A stretch of DNA of 27,672 bases from a virus: positions 1-27,672 of the IMG/VR virus record IMGVR_UViG_3300006805_000124; one strand, 5' to 3'. Below are positions 4,621-27,227 of this stretch, in pieces (position 1 is the first letter of the stretch; each line of letters opens with the position of its first letter). Under the pieces are notes generated by a model that saw only the letters and a list, made by a program, of their open reading frames with translations, did no database searches and had not been told where the DNA came from. The position numbers and the translations under genes are program-made.

Positions 4621-4983
4621 ATGAGTACAATGAAATTTGATCAATCCCGGGTTGATAGAGCCATTGAGGTTGCCTTGGTGGATAGTGTGCAATTATTGCA
4701 AGAGGAGATCTTGAAAATCACCCCGAGAGATCCAAAAAGGCCACCAAAAGATCCATCAAGAAAAATCACCGGGGATCTCAAGCGGTCCATTGATTACCAA
4801 CAGGTTGGACAATTCGAGTTTAAGATTGGGACAAAGCAAGGCGAGGCGGAGTATGGAAAGTATTTGGAGTTTGGCACACCGAGGATGGCACCAAGATCAT
4901 TTTTGAGGCAAGGAATCATTGAGAGCAAAGATGCAGTATTGAAAAACTTTGCCAAGCGGTTTCGGGAGGCAATCAATGGATAA
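4621..4983 (+). CDS. HK97 gp10-like neck/tail-completion protein
   Basis: 120 residues, no TGA. The motif series is characteristic of the gp10-like family: N-terminal helix (VDRAIEVALVDSVQLLQEEI), TPRDPKRPP and GDLKRSI, then the hallmark YGKYLEFGTPRMAPRSFLR and a C-terminal helix. In HK97-type phages this protein completes the neck. Its end overlaps the second copy of the late promoter motif. Confidence 0.8.
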   Translation: MSTMKFDQSRVDRAIEVALVDSVQLLQEEILKITPRDPKRPPKDPSRKITGDLKRSIDYQQVGQFEFKIGTKQGEAEYGKYLEFGTPRMAPRSFLRQGIIESKDAVLKNFAKRFREAING

Positions 4984-5016
4984 AGACATTGAAAATAAAC
5001 TTTATTTTATAATAAT
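4982..5016 (+). promoter_or_regulatory. late-type promoter motif, copy 2
   Basis: AAAGACATTGA (4982-4992) with TTGAAA as -35. At the 16-nt spacer the -10 reads AATAAT; TATAAT is present but only 13 nt away. The extended motif matches the other three copies (1231, 6205, 12127). It starts on the stop codon of the neck gene and precedes the tail-terminator gene. Confidence 0.45.
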
Positions 5017-5024
5017 CTGATAGT

Positions 5025-5405
5025 ATGATCAATGTAAAAGAATTTGTATACAGCAAATTGCATGGAAATGCAACATTATCATGATTGGTGGGTGATCGTA
5101 TATTTCCGCAAACCATGCCTCAATCAAACAAGGTATGGCCGGTGGTGATATACTCAAGGATCTCACCATGAAAGTTGGACACAAAGGGCATCCGGAATGA
5201 GTATTTCCAAATTTCAGTTTGGTGAAAAAAGGTAAATGATAATGAAACGATCATGGGTGTGATTGCATCAACATTTCATTTACTCAAAGAGTCACCGGTG
5301 AAACATTGCGATGTACAAAGGATGGATGAAACTTTTGATCAAGAATCACAAACATTTTGAAATCATGTTACAGTGCATATAAAAATGTTTGATCAAACAA
5401 TTTAA
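5025..5405 (+). CDS. tail terminator / tail-completion protein
   Basis: 126 residues with four TGA codons (LSGLVGDRIFP, ISPGKLD, VWGKKV, TFGNHV), so it is invisible under the standard code. The motif LVGDRIFPQTMPQSNKVWP followed by VVIYSRIS and a central QISVWG strand is the pattern of DUF3168/gp17-like tail-completion proteins. Position between neck and major tail protein agrees. Confidence 0.7.
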
Positions 5406-5430
5406 TTTTATTTTTCTAAAAATTCTCACT

Positions 5431-6204
5431 ATGCAAAACAGTGTACAAAAGGTAAAATCAGTGAGGTTTTGAAGTGGTGTACTATCAATGTCAAAAGACG
5501 ATGGTGCAACATGGATCAATCTTGGTGCCATTAAAGATGCAAACCTCAATGTTACAAAGTCAATTATTGAAGTTGTAATGGACAATGCAAAAATGCCACC
5601 AAAGGTGAAAATTGATGAGGCGGTGTTTAGTGCCAACCTCTATGAAATTGTACTTGAAAATTTACAAGACATTGATGGCATTGCCACTTACTCAACAGTT
5701 TCCGCAACACTTCAAACAGTTGTTGCAGAGCCACATGGCACAGGTTGGACAATCAATACTCCGATCAAGACCAATTACAAGAATGCCAACAATACAGCAG
5801 TTGGATCTATTGTGGTAAAAAACAACTCAACAACCCTTACTCTCAATACCGATTACCGCACATTTGTTGGAGCCGATGGATACACTTATATCCTACCGGT
5901 AACAGCACAAACCGGTGCAATTACATTTGGTTACACATACACACCACTTGCGAGCAAAGAGCAACTTTACAAGGACATTGTGAAAACTCTTGCAACAAAT
6001 CGTTTCAAGTTTGTGAATGTTGATGAAGATGGAAAGGAGTTTGGAGTTGAGTTTTACGAGGGGTACAACCGAGCCGGAATTGATGCAACATTTCTTCCGG
6101 ATGATACAACAGATGATGCACTCAACATCCCTGTTGAAATCAAGGCATACCCAGTTGTTGGATCTCAAAATCTCTTCCGCATATTTGACGAACAGGATGT
6201 TTAA
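5431..6204 (+). CDS. major tail (tube) protein
   Basis: 257 residues; one TGA (VRFGSGVLS) near the start joins the true N-terminus (ATG 5431) to the body. The order suggests a tail tube protein: beta-rich N-terminal domain (LSMSKDDGATWINLGAIKDA), a long Thr/Asn-rich beta insertion at ~95-165 that may be an Ig-like decoration, then the tube core again (FKFVNVDEDGKEFGVEFYEG). It is preceded by a U-rich leader and followed at once by a late promoter motif and terminator. Low TGA use fits high expression. Confidence 0.75.
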
Positions 6205-6239
6205 AAAGACATTGAGTAAAACACCAAAAATGCTATCCT
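6205..6239 (+). promoter_or_regulatory. late-type promoter, copy 3
   Basis: AAAGACATTGA (6205-6215); TTGAGT (6212-6217), 16-nt spacer, TATCCT (6234-6239). It begins right after the major-tail stop codon. The -10 box lies inside the left arm of the overlapping terminator hairpin, so the two signals share sequence. Confidence 0.5.
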
Positions 6240-6256
6240 TTCGGGGTAGCATTTTT
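6227..6256 (+). terminator. intrinsic terminator after major tail protein
   Basis: AAATGCTATCC and GGGGTAGCATTT pair around a TTTC loop and are followed by more Ts. The stem is symmetric in A and T runs, so it could work on both strands. It ends the abundant tail-tube transcript 50 nt after the stop codon. Confidence 0.8.
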
Positions 6257-7105: not shown

Positions 7106-10012
7106 ATGTCAAACATTGGTGAGCTTTCGGTTGGTGTGAAAGTAGATCAAGGATCTCTCAACAAATCAACCAAGGATGTACAAGACAGTTTCAAGAAAAC
7201 AGGTGATCAGATAGAGCAAAACTTTACCAACAGGACAAAGAAAGGTTTTGCCGGCATAGGATCATCACTTTCCGGCCTATGAAGTACCATTGCCGGTATT
7301 TTTAGTGTGTGAGCCATTGTTGGTTTTACTCAAAAACTCTTTGGCCTTGGATCAGATCTTGAGGAGGTTTCAAGTAAATTCAATGTGGTTTTCAAAAACT
7401 CCGATCAAGTAAAGCAAAACTTTATTGATCTTGCCGATGCAACCAATAGATCCTCACTTGATCTCATGACATTTGGGAGTGGTATTGGTAATGTACTTGC
7501 ACCACTTGGACTTGCACAAAGTGAGGTTGATGGCCTTTCTCTTTCTCTCACACAACTTGCCATTGATGTGGCCAGTTTCAACAATGCGAGTGATGCACAG
7601 GCGATCCAAGCATTTACATCCGCACTTACCGGGGAAAGAGAGGCATTGAAATCCCTTGGTATTGTTATAAGTGAGGCCGATGTGAGCAACAAGGCATACG
7701 AGCTTGGGTTGGCATCACAGGGGCAGGAACTCACCAAGGCACAAAAGGCACTCTCAACATACCAATTATTGATTGAAAATACAAGCAATGCACATGGTGA
7801 TGCTATCCGCACCGCCGATAGTTTCGCAAATCAACTCAAGGGATTGAGGGGTGCCATCACCGATGTTTTCGCAAATGCCGGGAAAAGTGTTGCACAATCA
7901 ACCGCCGGATTACTCAAGAAAATCACAGTTTTTACATCCTCTTATGGGTGAGCTATCATTGAGACCATTGTGGAAACCGGAAAGGTAATTGGTGGAGTAA
8001 TCGCCGATGCCATGTGATTTTTTGGAGATCTCTTTGGTGTGATAAAAACCGGAACTTGAGAGAGTACCGATGATATGAATAATTTTGCCTTTGTATTCAT
8101 GAAAGTGGTGCAAGGGTTTGGTGTTGGTGTGAAATTCATTGGCACCCTCATGGGGAGCCTCTTGAAAATTGTTGGCATAGCACTCACCGGAATTGTGCAA
8201 TATAATATTGCTATGTGAAAAAGTGTTGGTGCAGTTTGGAATATAATAAAAACCACCATCATTGGTACTCTTAAAAGTATTGTGAGTGTAGTGGAGTTTG
8301 GGGCGGAGGGTATTGGCCAAATATTTGTTGGTATGGCGGAGGCGATTGTTGGAGTTTTCCAAGGGATTGCGGAAAATGTAGGGGTTGCAGTAAAAAAGGC
8401 GGTAAATGTTGCCATCAATGGGATCAATGGTTTCATTGATCTTGTGAATAATATACCATGAGTCAAGATTGATAAACTCTTGGGATATGGTGATGCCAAC
8501 TTTAAACCATTTGAGTTGAAAATATCCAAAAATATTGATGCCATCAAGGGGAAATTTGATGCATTTGGTGAGGATATAAAGGGGAATTATGCCGGAATTG
8601 GTGCAAGTTTTGATGAGGTATCATGAAACTTTGCCACCGCCACCGGCAATATCGTTGCGGTAACAGAGTGATCCGTTGCGGATATGGGTGCAAGTTGGAA
8701 TGAGTTTGGCCAATATGTTGAGGAGTCAAATGCCAAGGTGACAAAATCCCTTGATGAGTGAGCAAAGAAATCTCAAGAGAATGCAAAAAAGTATGATCAA
8801 GGATATTACAATATTTTGGATCTCATTGATAAGTACAAGGGGGGTATTGATGATGCCACCGATAAAACCGGAAAGCAAGGCGATGTGGCAAAAAAGACAA
8901 TGGACAAGGTGAAAGATCTTTACAAGGAATGGGAAAAAAAGGTGGAGGATGTAAACAAGGCCCAAGAGAAATTGGCCGAGGATACGAAAAAATACAACAT
9001 GGATATTGAGGATAGCTTGAGAAGTTTAAACAAGGAGCTTGCCAATACCACCGCAGAGTATGAGAAAGCCATTGGCCAAATATCCGGCGATACAGGAAAT
9101 GAGATTGCACAAAGAGGGGTTGAGATTGCCAAGGATCTTGCCGATGTGGAAAAAGATATTGCCGATTCAAAGGCAAAATTTGCGGATTCAAATTACTATG
9201 ATCCGGAGTTGGTAAATCTCGAAAAGAAAAAATTGGACCTCTTAAAGGAGCAAGAGTTTGTTGTGGCCAATACCACCGAGGCACAAAGAAAAGAGGCGGA
9301 GAGACTTGCATCATTGAGTGATGCACAAAAGATCAAGGAGGATGCAGATAAAGAGATTGCCGAAAAAACACGAGCATTTGAGGCGGAAAAAACCCGGCTC
9401 GAGAGCTTACAAAAAATCAATCAATATTTTCTTGATCTCAAGGTATTGGATCAAAAGGAATATGATCAAATGTTGAAAGATGAAAAGTTTTTGGCCATGA
9501 CTCAAGAGGAGCAAGAGTTGGTGTTGAAGTTGGCAAGAGAAAAACTTGAACTCACAATGCAAAAGGATGCCATCATTGCGATGCAACAGGAGATCCATGA
9601 TGCAACCATTGCCCTCAATGATAGTGCCTATGCGGTACAAAAGGCCAACATTGTTGGATTAAAAAGCGATTATGCGGATCTCATTGCACAAATCAATAAT
9701 GCAATCGAGGCACAAAGACAACTCAATGCCTTGAGGGCATCCGGTGGCCAAGGGTTTGCATCCGGAGGGTTTACCGGTGCAGGCGGTGCCAATGAAGTGG
9801 CCGGAGTGGTCCACAAGGGTGAGTGGGTTGCACCAAAATGGATGGTAAACAGTATGAAACCGCTTTTTGATAATCTTGAGGCATCAAGGACAAGGGGTTT
9901 TGTATCCGGAGGAAATACAAGCACTACCAATAAAAGCCAAACCAATAATATCACCGTAAATAATGGTGCGGATCTTCGGGCATTTATAGACTATGCAAAA
10001 TGGAAATTATAG
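7106..10012 (+). CDS. tail tape measure protein
   Basis: 968 residues, the longest gene. About ten TGA codons, all between 7279 and 8760, must be read as Gly; the rest uses GGN. Order: N-terminal helical region (VGVKVDQGSLNKSTKDVQD), hydrophobic segments (~45-75 and ~280-480, e.g. VGAIVGFTQKLFG, FMKVVQGFGVGVKFIGTLMG) that may insert in the host membrane, a charged coiled-coil region (~570-860), and a C-terminal motif typical of tape measures (SGGFTGAGGANEVAGVVHKG, then EWVAPKWMV). Length in phages scales with tail length. The uneven TGA distribution hints at a mosaic history. Confidence 0.9.
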
Positions 10013-16858: not shown

Positions 16859-18166
16859 ATGTTACCTTTGAGCAGGATAGAGATGGGGCAACAGATCGTT
16901 GCAAGCGGTATCAATTACCTTTCGTTTTCATCAATGAAAGAGTTGAGAAATAATGAGGCATTGTTTTTGAAACATTACATCAATTATGAGTGGGACAATA
17001 CAATTTACTTGGCCACCATCATTGGAAAATCATGCCATCATGGGGTTGAGTGATTTTATGGAGATCCGGACAATAAGGAACTCTTTGAAAAGGATCCGGA
17101 GTTTGTAGTGGCAAAGGTTGTAAAGATTGCCAAGGACTATGCAAAAAATGAGTACATTGCCAAGTATCGAAAACACGAGGCATTTTGGACAAGCACCAAG
17201 ATGATTGAGTTTTGATGATATGAGGACATACACAAACTTGTGGATGAGTACCGAGCAAAGATGGATGAGATCAAGGCGATCACCGCCACCGATGTGGACA
17301 CCATGAAAACCGCCAAGAAGGAGGCAACAAAGATCGAGACAAAGATCAAAAAGGCCATTGAAAAACACAAGGCCAAAGATGAGAAACTTGATGATTTCAT
17401 CAATTGGTGAAAGACCGGGACAATGGAGGGGATCTTTGAGGGGATTGAGTATGGTATTTCCAATTGGTTTTCTCAAGTGTATCCGAGAGTGAAAGGTTGG
17501 AAATTCATTGGTGCCGAGTTTGAAAGGACAATACCGGTGGCCGATCTTTCCGGTGAGATCCTTGAGGTGCCTTTGAAATTCATTATTGATGCACTCTTTG
17601 AGGATGAAAATAGTGATCTCATTATTGTGGATTGGAAATTTAAAGGAAAATTATCGGATGATACGAGCATCAAGCCGGATTACGATATGCAAGGCACAAC
17701 ATACTTTTTTGGATGCATGACAGCATTTGGAAAAAAACCGATCAAGGCATTGTTTATCGAGATCCAACCATCCGAGGCAAAGCCACCATACATGCAACAA
17801 GCGGAGTTGAGAGAACTTTGTGGATTACATGGCATTGATTGGGAAACCGGAAACAAGGGCAAGTACATGACCAATGCCCTCATGACGGATGCCCTCATGG
17901 CCAAGGGTATCATTTCCCTCAATCCGGTGGTGTATGAGTATGTAATCAACTTTGTGGAAAAACCATACTTGCTTGCGATGTGGGAGGTGTTTTATCACCA
18001 AACTACCAAGAGACTGTATGAGTTGATTGTTGATGGTGAGGACTTCATGCCAAATATCTTTGATGCATCTTTTGATGGAGGCATTGCAGTATACCAAGAT
18101 TGGATGGCACAATTCAAGCCCGAGGAGTCACCGGCATATACCGCCGATGATGTAGTTGCTTTATAG
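16859..18166 (+). CDS. PD-(D/E)XK exonuclease of the recombination pair
   Basis: 435 residues with five TGA codons (GVEGFYGD, EFGGYED, INWGKTG). RecB/Cas4-like landmarks: LSFSSMKELRNNEALFLKHY (21-40), H60/H61 in IGKSCHHGVEG, D244 in LKFIIDALF, D258-W-K260 in LIIVDWKFK, and Q278xxxY282 in YDMQGTTYFF. A charged coiled-coil insertion occupies ~125-185. Directly follows the annealing protein, as in lambda Exo/Bet and RecE/RecT. It would resect dsDNA ends for annealing. TAG stop. Confidence 0.75.
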
Positions 18167-18207
18167 AGTCAAATGGATATAGTGGTTATGCTTTAGCCTC
18201 AACAATT

Positions 18208-18233
18208 ACCCTTGCTGAAATGCAGGGGTTTTT
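18208..18233 (+). terminator. terminator after exonuclease gene
   Basis: ACCCTTGC/GCAGGGGT stem (one G-U pair), loop TGAAAT, then TTTTT. It closes the recombination operon 42 nt after its stop codon. Confidence 0.75.
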
Positions 18234-18271
18234 GTTTCCCGAGAGTCAAGGACAAATCCAAGACAAAATAT

Positions 18272-18299
18272 TTGCATTTATAGTTTATTTCCATATACT
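18272..18299 (+). promoter_or_regulatory. promoter of the candidate RNA
   Basis: TTGCAT (18272-18277), 16-nt spacer, TATACT (18294-18299). Same spacer as the early promoters. A start at about 18306 would put the first base of the transcript at the left arm of the long RNA helix. Confidence 0.5.
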
Positions 18300-18305
18300 C
18301 TTGGT

Positions 18306-18440
18306 AAGTAAAAGCCTTGCAACTTCTACATAACACTTTAGTTTGAAAATCCTCTAAAAAGAGAATGAAACATGGCCACGATGCCATGAAGTGTGTCCCC
18401 TCAATAAGTTACTCGCAAGGCTCTTACTGTGGGGATTTTT
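18306..18440 (+). ncRNA. candidate structured RNA, ~135 nt
   Basis: No convincing gene lies between 18167 and 18453. The stretch holds a closing helix P1 of 13 pairs in 14 (18307-18320 with 18415-18428; A18312 faces C18423), helix P2 ACACTT/AAGTGT (18333-18338 with 18389-18394), hairpin P3 CTCT/AGAG (18352-18363), and hairpin P4 CATGGC/GCCATG (18371-18388) abutting P2. TCCCC (18396-18400) can pair with GGGGA (18431-18435), just before TTTTT, either as a pseudoknot with P1 or as a competing terminator. A promoter is at the right distance upstream. It may be a free RNA or a switch-like leader of the replication gene 14 nt later. No known family recognised. Confidence 0.5.
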
Positions 18441-18453
18441 AATTTATAAAAAT

Positions 18454-19188
18454 ATGAAAGAATCGTTTTATTTTCCGCACGACAATAATGCACACAATGA
18501 TCCAAAGATCATGACGGTATTTATGAAAACATGACTTGCCGGAATCGGATTGTATTGGATATTGATTGAGCTTATGCATCAACAAGAATCTTGAAAAATA
18601 AAGTATGAGCAGTATGAGGACTATATAAAATGGTACTCAAGCCATGAAAACAAGTGAGAGCCATTTGTTGAACACTTGTTGAACATATTTATATCAAGTG
18701 AATTATTTTGCTTGGATGATGATGGTTTTATATTCTCAAAAAGGGTAATTGAAAACAAGAAATATAGAGAGGAGTTATCAGAAAAGCGAAGTGAGGCCGG
18801 AAAAAAATCCGCATTGGCAAGGCAAAAAACAACAAGTGTTGAACAAAATTGAACAAGTGTTGAACAAGGAAAGGAAAGGAAAGGAAAGGAAAGGAAATTA
18901 AAAGAAAATACAGATACAGTTGTTGCGGTGCAACCAAACGAATATACAGAATCAATTTTATTTCTAAAAAAACAGACTCTTGATAATATCCAAGTACCGG
19001 AATATGCCGAGAGTTACAAAAATGATTGGATCGCATTTATAGCCTATTGGACAGAAAAAGGGAAAACATGAAAAATACGAGCAGAAAGGGAGCCAACATT
19101 TGAAATAAAAAGGAGGTTTGCCACTTGGATGAGTAGAAAAAAAGAAAACTACCAAAAAACAGAGCAACCAAAGCGGTGAGTGTTCTAA
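18454..19188 (+). CDS. replication-initiator-like protein (DUF4373/Lin1244-type N-terminus)
   Basis: 244 residues, six TGA codons (MKTGLAGIG, QESGKIK, ENKGEPF, EQNGTSV, KTGKIRA, KRGVF). The N-terminal ~95 residues (SFYFPHDNNAHNDPKIM; LAGIGLYWILIELMHQQ; FIFSKRVIENKKYREE) match the domain found at the start of many phage and plasmid replication proteins. The linker (SEAGKKSALARQKT, then SVEQ repeats and GKERKGKERK) is encoded by DNA repeats that look like an origin. The C-terminal ~90 residues (YKNDWIAFIAYWTEKGKTGK, RRFATWMSRKKENY) are a helical domain seen in helicase-loader/initiator proteins. Follows the candidate RNA directly. Confidence 0.65.
18666..18897 (+). repeat. iteron-like repeats and purine tract: candidate origin
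   Basis: TGTTGAACA occurs at 18666, 18677, 18837 and 18858, with a degenerate copy (ATTGAACA) at 18848. Neighbouring copies are 10-11 bp apart, one helical turn. The last copy runs into six perfect GGAAA units (18868-18897) and an A-rich stretch, giving strong purine/pyrimidine strand asymmetry. The arrangement of iterons followed by an asymmetric tract inside the initiator gene is that of the lambda O/ori region. Confidence 0.5.
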
Positions 19189-21263: not shown

Positions 21264-21918
21264 GACAAAATACGAACTCGCCCGAGAAATCGCCGAGGAG
21301 TACCACAATGCATATTTGCAAGGTGATACCATGTTGCACATCCAAGAGTGGATTGATGAGCAAATCAAGATCCACAAGAAAAATCCAAGCATCACTATTG
21401 ATGAGGATGGCCATGTTACCGACATGGAAAAGTGAGAAACAACCATTTATGATTGTTGCGGATCGGAAATAAAATACCTCAAGGTTTCTTTTTCAAAACT
21501 TTTCATACCACCATTACAAAAAATCCTTGATCATGTTTGCGAGATCGAGAAAGAAACCGGAGTGCATACCAACATTGTGAAAATCCGAGATCTCAACCTC
21601 ACTCATACCGAGTACACCATCTTGAATAAGATTGCAAATTTTGGCCTCTTATATCGAGAGGAGACACCGGATGGCCGAAAGATAAAAAATGGCACCTATG
21701 GAGTGCCACAAAAGCGGATATACGAGTTTTTGAAAGGTGAGTGGGAGGTTGCAAGGTTTTATGTGGTAAAATCAACCACAGGGCAAAGAATATTGAGCAA
21801 GGAAAGAGTTTTTATTGGAAAGATCCATAATGATACTCATTTTGAGGATTACCAAACCAAGCAGTTGCCAAGCTATGTGCAATATATTGTAAACGATGAC
21901 ATTTTATGATACAAATAA
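21256..21918 (+). CDS. hypothetical protein, 220 aa
   Basis: Two TGA codons (MEKGETT, DDILGYK). N-terminal ~60 residues helical and charged; the middle (YDCCGSEIKYLKVSFSKLFI) contains two adjacent cysteines; the C-terminal ~110 residues (LNLTHTEYTILNKIANFGLL; GVPQKRIYEFLKGEWEVARF) have the rhythm of a winged-helix domain. It overlaps the previous gene by 8 nt and precedes the homing endonuclease. It may be a DNA-binding regulator; this is pattern-based only. Confidence 0.5.
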
Positions 21919-21929
21919 TTTGATACCCG

Positions 21930-22445
21930 ATGTATAAGATATTTAATACCGGTGAAATATTCAAAGACACCGATAATTGACTATGCCAATATATAAAACC
22001 AATACTTGGTAAAAATTGATATATGCAAGTATGATTATCAATATCATGAAAAAAGAAAATCTTTTATATCCACCGCCTTGTTGCACAAGCCTTTATACCA
22101 AATCCGGAGAATAAACCCCAAGTAAATCATATTGATGGAGACAAGACCAACAACCATGTGGATAATCTTGAGTGGTGTACAGTAACAGAAAACCAAATAC
22201 ACTCATACCGAGTTTTAAAAAATATTTGATGATTTCAAAAAATGAATTTCATGAAATGAAAAAAATGATCATTGCATCATAATTCAAAGAAAGTTATACA
22301 ATATTTTAAAGATTGAAATACAAAAATATTTGATTGCATAACAGATTGAGAAAAAGCAACTTGAATATCAAAAGCGGATATATCAAAGGTTTGTTACTGA
22401 AAAAGGAAATCCGCTTGATGATATGGTTGGCAATTTATTTCATAA
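21930..22445 (+). CDS. HNH homing endonuclease (NUMOD-type), copy 1
   Basis: 171 residues; 14 of 18 glycines are TGA, so the standard code shows nothing here. The N-terminal segment and the core ([37 protein letters not shown]) are the HNH_3 pattern with H48, N66-H67 and N75. The C-terminal module ([20 protein letters not shown], then [20 protein letters not shown] and GWQFIS) is a NUMOD1/IENR DNA-binding repeat. Residues 47-84 are encoded by DNA nearly identical to that in the gene at 26700. Probably a selfish free-standing homing endonuclease. Confidence 0.85.
22068..22181 (+). repeat. 114-bp block shared by two HNH genes, copy 1
   Basis: Matches 26874-26987 with three differences, all silent third-position T/C changes (Pro CCC/CCT, Asn AAT/AAC, His CAT/CAC). 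The flanks of the two genes have diverged far more. Confidence 0.9.
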
Positions 22446-26039: not shown

Positions 26040-26694
26040 ATACACACTTTCCATTATGGTCCTTGTGATCATATATTTTTCCCTTGATTACTTACCGAAA
26101 AGCGATGAAAAACCATTGGTTGTTGCAACCATTGATACAGTACCGGCGATCAAAGAGGCCACCAAGATTGCACCCGAGATCCAACCGATCGAGAAACCAA
26201 TTGAGGTGAAGCCATCACCAAAGCCGGCAACACCGAAAGTATCCGCACCAAAACCAGTTGTTTCCAAAAAGGAAACAGTTGCACCACCACCAAAGGATCC
26301 TCAAAGGATCATCAAGAAAGGTTGGCCGGCAACCGATGAGATCCAAAACATTGTAAATTATGCCTACAAAAAAGGTGGCAAAGATTTCTTGCTCACTCTC
26401 GAGTGAGAAAATGGATTGTGGAAGTGGGACCGCCGGAGTGGAGTGGTTGGAGCAAATGGATATTACGATTATGGTATTTGCCAACTCAATGGCCAATGGC
26501 ATGGAAAGTTTATTTTTGCCAATGGTTACAATCTCAAGGCCGGGTTTTCCAAGGATTTCCAAAGCCCATACAAGCAAATTGATTATTGCATTGGAGTATG
26601 GAATGATGCGATCCGGAAAGGTAGGATAAAAAGTACATTTTATGCATATAATAAAAGGTTACCACTTGTTGCAAGGTTTACATGATTACAATAA
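26032..26694 (+). CDS. membrane-anchored lysozyme/transglycosylase-like endolysin
   Basis: 220 residues; two TGA codons, one inside the active-site motif (LLTLEGENGLW) and one near the end (RFTGLQ). N-terminal signal anchor at ~5-17 (TLSIMVLVIIYFSL), a Pro/Lys/Glu-rich spacer (~45-95, e.g. KPSPKPATPKVSAPKP), then a lysozyme-superfamily domain: E124/E126, YYDYGICQLN (144-153), KDFQSPYKQIDYCIGVWND and TFYAYNKR. E126 best fits the catalytic Glu. It would cut peptidoglycan from the outer face of the inner membrane, like signal-anchor-release endolysins. Confidence 0.75.
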
Positions 26695-26699
26695 AATAT

Positions 26700-27227
26700 A
26701 TGTTTTTAGAAAATTTTAAACAAGCAAATTGATTTCCGAGTAATTACCTTATTTGAGATAGATGAACTTTTAAAAATATCAATTATAGGTGAACTTGAAA
26801 GGAGAGAATTTTTGAAAGTAAAACATTGCGAAATTGATATTTATTTATTCACATAAAATGAAAATGTTTTAGTATCCACCGCCTTGTTGCACAAGCCTTT
26901 ATACCAAATCCGGAGAATAAACCTCAAGTAAACCACATTGATGGAGACAAGACCAACAACCATGTGGATAATCTTGAGTGGTGTACATCAAGCGAGAATA
27001 TACAACATGCCTTTAAAAATTGATTGAGCAATGTATGATCTTGATGATTAAATCACCTTAGCTTAAAAGTACAACAAGAGTTATTTGATTGAGAAATAAT
27101 TTGAATATTTTGAAGCATAAGAGAAGCATCAAGGATGACTTGAGTGCCAAATAGTAGCATTTCCGCATGCTGTTTGTGAAGATTGCAACATGCATGATGA
27201 TACTTTTGGAAAAGAGTACAAACATAG
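26700..27227 (+). CDS. HNH homing endonuclease (NUMOD-type), copy 2
   Basis: 175 residues; 18 of 19 glycines are TGA. The core ([38 protein letters not shown]) repeats copy 1. Its C-terminal module ([19 protein letters not shown], then GRLQHAGGYFWKRV) is again NUMOD1/IENR-like but divergent from copy 1, suggesting a different DNA target. ATG 26700 is just after the lysozyme stop; the leader is short. Probably a selfish element inserted between the lysis pair and the methyltransferase. Confidence 0.8.
26874..26987 (+). repeat. 114-bp block shared by two HNH genes, copy 2
   Basis: Partner of 22068-22181, three silent differences. It covers the catalytic HNH core only. Confidence 0.9.

Follow-up and report, generated by a model that had tools for sequence, protein, structure and literature searches.

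The window, that is, the whole stretch of DNA analysed here, is a 27.7-kb virus record (IMGVR_UViG_3300006805_000124, 27,672 nt) in which the genes for RecT (PF03837) and an exonuclease (phrog_1218) are followed by a 287-nt gap and a replication initiator gene. The exonuclease was aligned with those of three diverged phages, L003, L006 and L012, with which it is 57–60% identical. The genes of the window read through TGA as glycine (code 25), and the TGA columns of this alignment mostly correspond to GGN glycine codons of the relatives. TGA is also read as glycine in phages of Absconditabacteria/Gracilibacteria (PMC10746230), and the host of the window phage probably belongs to the bacteria that read TGA in this way. 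The use of TGA differs strongly among related code-25 phages, since it encodes 16 of 22 glycines in the L012 exonuclease (4950–6250) and 4 of 28 in that of the window. The gap extends from 18167 to 18453, between the exonuclease stop at 18166 and the initiator ATG at 18454, and no plausible gene was found inside it under code 11 or 25, in agreement with the gene-free gap of about 280 bp described in an earlier note on this DNA. The features of the locus are the following:

16859–18166, plus strand: upstream gene, PD-(D/E)XK-like phage exonuclease of 435 residues, code 25 (phrog_1218 exonuclease, E 4e-8)
18156–18234, plus strand: second promoter TTGCTT-16-TATAGT (18156–18183) and strong terminator (18208–18234), with a predicted RNA of about 45 nt
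18272–18299, plus strand: promoter TTGCAT-16-TATACT, from which transcription is predicted to begin at about 18306
18304–18329, plus strand: P0 hairpin GU-AAGU[AAAAGCCUUGCA]ACUU-(CU)-AC, pairs 18304–18309/18322–18329, with the 5' strand of S1 in its loop
18313–18320, plus strand: 5' strand of S1, AGCCUUGC, predicted kissing or pseudoknot pairing (duplex -14.5 kcal/mol)
18333–18394, plus strand: inner domain, with P2 (18333–18338/18389–18394) and hairpins at 18352–18363 and 18371–18388; not conserved in relatives
18395–18400, plus strand: 5' strand of S2, GUCCCC, terminator stem
18405–18408, plus strand: 5' strand of P3, UAAG, apical stem pairing with 18423–18426; counterpart of P3 in the group B relatives described below
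18415–18422, plus strand: 3' strand of S1, GCAAGGCU, in the apical loop of the terminator
18431–18440, plus strand: 3' strand of S2, GGGGAU (18431–18436), and T run (18436–18440), predicted intrinsic terminator
18454–19188, plus strand: replication initiator of the Lin1244_N family, 244 residues, code 25 (PF14297, E 4.3e-9; phrog_2562 replication initiation protein)

Within the initiator gene there is a run of AGGAA repeats at 18867–18897 (GKERKGKERKLK), and lysine/glutamate-rich linkers similar to this region are present in the initiators of some relatives. Elsewhere in the window, two ORFs (21906–22445 and 26682–27227, code 25) have in common a 38-residue stretch, as in HNH homing-type endonucleases, and represent two related copies in one phage.

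Taken alone, TTGCAT-16-TATACT is a weak match to the consensus, and promoter-like sites in the window number 58 against 52 expected. The class TTGNNN-16-TATANT, nevertheless, occurs seven times on the plus strand against 0.75 expected in shuffles, and the same boxes with spacers of 13–15 and 17–20 nt appear at about the expected frequency; the claim that this promoter has the 16-nt spacer of others in the window is thus borne out. Five of the seven sites are shortly upstream of genes (12134, 15735, 20329, 24585 and 25385, three of them with the exact sequence TTGAAA-16-TATAAT), and the other two are both around the 287-nt gap. One of these is the promoter at 18156, which sits where the exonuclease gene ends and, with its terminator, could produce an RNA of about 45 nt directly 5' of the leader element. 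This upstream unit has no counterpart in L003, L006 or L012, and a possible pairing in trans of its RNA with the leader was rejected (p 0.24).

The RNA predicted from the promoter at 18272 starts at about 18306, ends in the T run and has a length of about 135 nt. Its core is S1, a helix of 8 bp (18313–18320/18415–18422) that would join the loop of P0 with the apical loop of the terminator hairpin formed by S2 and P3. Initially, a long-range helix of 14 positions, P1, had been proposed to begin at the first base; it is present (18307–18320/18415–18428, 13 pairs and one mismatch) and corresponds to S1 extended by five pairs, which compete with P0 and P3, but it is not conserved in relatives. The three inner helices described together with it are likewise all present (18333–18338/18389–18394, 18352–18355/18360–18363 and 18371–18376/18383–18388), P2 and P4 again without conservation. 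The TCCCC/GGGGA pairing that had been placed before the T run is in fact GUCCCC/GGGGAU, and the initiator ATG is, as stated, 14 nt downstream of the T run. The second promoter with its terminator, the 5' hairpin P0 and the apical stem P3 were absent from that description. By itself P0 is weak (+1.2 kcal/mol). The long P1 with the inner helices has a calculated energy of -30.6 kcal/mol (MFE -33.2), and the nested terminator fold with P0, P3 and S2 reaches -24.3 without the kissing helix, whose duplex would contribute -14.5 before penalties. Long P1 therefore outcompetes the nested fold unless the kissing energy is added; on these energies both states may form.

The phages that read TGA as glycine will be referred to as group A, and include the window, its twin L002, L003, L006 and L012. 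L002, found by the exonuclease search, is 99% identical to the window and has the same gap. The gap of L006 is divided over the ends of its record and was joined with L008/L018. A descriptor of the generic design, which matches the window leader at 18306–18440, found the same design at the same place in L003, L006+L018 and L012, even though the sequences cannot be aligned; an alignment of these leaders was dropped at about 50% column identity. In each gap a 5' segment in the loop of a small hairpin is followed by a spacer, the 5' arm of the terminator, a loop able to pair with the 5' segment, the 3' arm, the T run and the initiator ATG. The loop pairing is GGUGGCAU/AUGCCACC in L003, GGUGGCAA/UUGCCACC in L006 and GUUGUGA/UCACAAC in L012. 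In S1, L003 and L006 are distinguished by a single compensatory pair, and their terminator stems are almost wholly different; compensatory changes maintain both helices. The core that recurs in relatives consists of P0, the loop-loop pairing of 8 bp and the terminator hairpin.

Initiators related to those of L003 and L006 led to a second family, group B, formed by viral contigs whose genes follow code 11 and whose promoters are of the Bacteroidota type (TAnnTTTG). The hosts of both groups are presumed from genetic code and promoter type. Here an RNA of about 95 nt lies between the promoter and the start codon of a replication operon, and a search with its core pattern recovered 32 viral contigs with 18 distinct sequences. 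For P0, S1, S2 and P3 taken together, all 412 of 412 pair cells are standard, 11 pairs have changed on both sides, and pairing falls to about 34–44% when one strand is slid as a control. Accordingly, the covariation that the earlier note had proposed to look for was found, although in P0, S1, S2 and P3 of group B and not in P1, P2 or P4, which are unconserved. Unconstrained folding of the members places S1 in the loop of P0 and its partner in the apical loop of the terminator, as predicted for a kissing loop. The T run is 9–23 nt 5' of the ATG in 31 of 31 complete elements, the corresponding distance in the window being 18 nt, and the promoter is just upstream in 30 (TAnnTTTG, or TAnnTTG in one). 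The next gene encodes a wHTH initiator, a Lin1244_N initiator (in L038, L041, L042 and L054; that of L041 is 30% identical to the window initiator, E 2e-18) or an HNH or methyltransferase protein; where such genes are inserted, the initiator was found further on in L044, L057 and L068. All parts of this design, P0, S1, S2, P3, the U run and the ATG, are present in the window leader. The unpaired linker and internal-loop bases of group B form invariant columns, the stems of P0 and P3 vary freely, and no competing antiterminator helix is present in the alignment, so that regulation by alternative folding finds no support there. Group A and group B have in common the design and the gene context but not the sequence, and their leaders may have a common ancestry.

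A covariance model of group B, R1 (sequence core CTTAAA..GCCNTCATT), gave no match to the leaders of the window, L003 or L006+L018, a weak match at the L012 terminator (21.4 bits, E 0.77) and only weak matches inside coding sequence across the window. In 84,980 cellular genomes the core pattern had 33 matches, which were attributed to chance, the CTCAC partner being missing upstream of all of them. A reading of group B as a leader peptide (ATGCCTTCATTTAATGAA...) was rejected, given that the ATG is absent in the L019/L048 group, L037 is frameshifted and the pairings explain the conservation. A second candidate (L052/L115, 5642–5713) was also taken as chance, since its P0 falls within the coding sequence of the gene upstream. 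No such element was found in ten records of phages with distant wHTH initiators, where the search covered the stretch beginning some 700 nt 5' of the match. A separate RNA, a permuted tmRNA, was observed at 9293–9527 of L025 (RF04321, 55.9 bits), a viral contig with a related initiator.

Comparison thus supports the architecture, recurrence and covariation of the element, and with them the structured RNA before the initiator, with a pseudoknot that joins or competes with the terminator, as originally put forward. Its position suggests a leader, because only 13 nt separate the U run from the ATG in the window; a hairpin and U run stand between promoter and start codon and no other promoter fits between the T run and the ATG, so the initiator must be read through the terminator, which favours a leader or attenuator. 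On balance, we favour the view that the phage replication operon has this element as its 5' leader and that it represents a new class of leader RNA. Transcription would start at the first bases of the leader, and the 5' hairpin would expose the S1 loop for pairing with the apical loop of the terminator hairpin, which ends in the U run a few nucleotides 5' of the start codon. By default much of the transcription would stop there, yielding the RNA of about 135 nt, and the initiator would be made only when the polymerase reads through; the loop-loop pairing would set how well the terminator forms and thereby tune the dosage or timing of the initiator. In this model the termination itself is inferred, and S1 may either help or hinder it. 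Action in cis is supported by the finding that each copy has a single matching loop pair: in L047 a second, diverged element precedes an HNH gene, and its loops form a pair of their own (ACTGCAAC/GTTGCAGT).

It could be argued that the locus is an ordinary terminator with a chance complementarity upstream. Terminator-like sites are frequent in the window (22 against 11 expected), and S1 complementarity alone is marginal against shuffles at single sites (p 0.0065–0.12). The fold z-score is -2.4 for the RNA (134 nt) and -3.7 for the whole gap; the full design of hairpin, loop pairing and terminator, however, arose in 4 of 6000 shuffles of the window gap and in none of the 3000 made per relative for three relatives. 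When whole records were scanned on both strands with the descriptor, which was composed with the design already known, the leader site ranked first in the window twin, L003 and L012 (33–38 kb), and in the window record itself a long-loop match inside a gene scored 44.2 against 42.8 for the leader site. Together with the covariation in group B, these results make a chance origin very improbable.

A less easily dismissed, if still unlikely, explanation is that the phage has an independent small RNA gene here, with the terminated transcript as its trans-acting product and the initiator mRNA resulting from incomplete termination. The compact fold, a promoter and a terminator of its own, the invariant unpaired bases and the lack of an antiterminator helix in group B would all suit such a gene. 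It agrees poorly with an element that is always directly before a gene at so short a distance from the ATG, with no room for another initiator promoter, and with kissing sequences that differ between the two copies in L047; possibly, a stand-alone small RNA could also limit initiator expression. The same conserved bases, beside stems free to change, could instead mark a riboswitch or protein-binding aptamer, in which termination would depend on the binding of a metabolite or a phage protein, for instance the initiator, to the kissing-loop fold; kissing loops or pseudoknots do occur beside terminators in known riboswitches. This is rather improbable, considering that no known riboswitch family matches, that group A is devoid of the conserved bases and that the downstream gene families differ. 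Almost no weight is given to a target of antisense RNA, as in rep leaders of the pT181/pIP501 type: the logic is the same, with an initiator gene whose leader contains a terminator, and antisense RNAs use kissing loops, but the minus strand near the window element has no promoter of the phage's class, and an antisense TAnnTTTG is present at only 5 of 32 group B loci.

The leader of the replication operon remains our preferred reading. RNAs of one design, with different sequences and at the same place in related and unrelated phages, probably represent a so far uncatalogued element that switches or slows phage replication. More tentatively, and at slightly less than even confidence, they may form a recurrent class in which a 5' hairpin kisses the terminator loop, controlling replication initiators across very different hosts and genetic codes with a conserved fold and an almost free sequence. 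The textbook control of the switch into phage DNA replication relies on repressors and protein antiterminators, and this class, if real, would add an RNA layer to it. To our knowledge, there is hardly any work on phages whose hosts read TGA as glycine.

At gathering score, Rfam 15 gave no relevant match for the window, the gap, L003, L006, L018 or L012, nor for L019, L027, L028, L030 or the L047 element; the group B family, with its 18 distinct, covarying sequences, is thus new to Rfam and ready for probing. DNA similarity to named phages was limited to chance matches, and a literature search on kissing-loop or pseudoknot leaders before phage replication genes found nothing matching. The paper on phages of TGA-as-glycine bacteria makes no mention of noncoding RNA (PMC10746230), and one potential counterpart is HMP_4078, a candidate human-microbiome RNA from Bacteroidetes near phage domains (PMC8040213).

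Among known systems, type III toxin-antitoxin RNAs (ToxI-like) have the same order of promoter, pseudoknotted RNA, terminator and gene, but the gap contains no RNA repeats (no repeated 9-mer) and the next gene is a Lin1244_N replication initiator instead of an endoribonuclease toxin. The purine, preQ1, ZTP and fluoride riboswitches likewise couple a loop-loop or pseudoknot fold to an intrinsic terminator in a leader; in the window leader, however, the second kissing hairpin would be the terminator itself and not part of a separate aptamer, and the gene context is replication, not metabolism. The attenuator leaders of pT181 repC and pIP501 repR also carry a terminator just before a replication initiator gene, and the level of the window initiator would similarly be set by read-through. 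These plasmid leaders act via an antisense RNA from the opposite strand, which in pIP501 uses kissing loops (PMC4981023), whereas in the window leader the terminator loop is predicted to pair with a hairpin situated further 5' in the same transcript.
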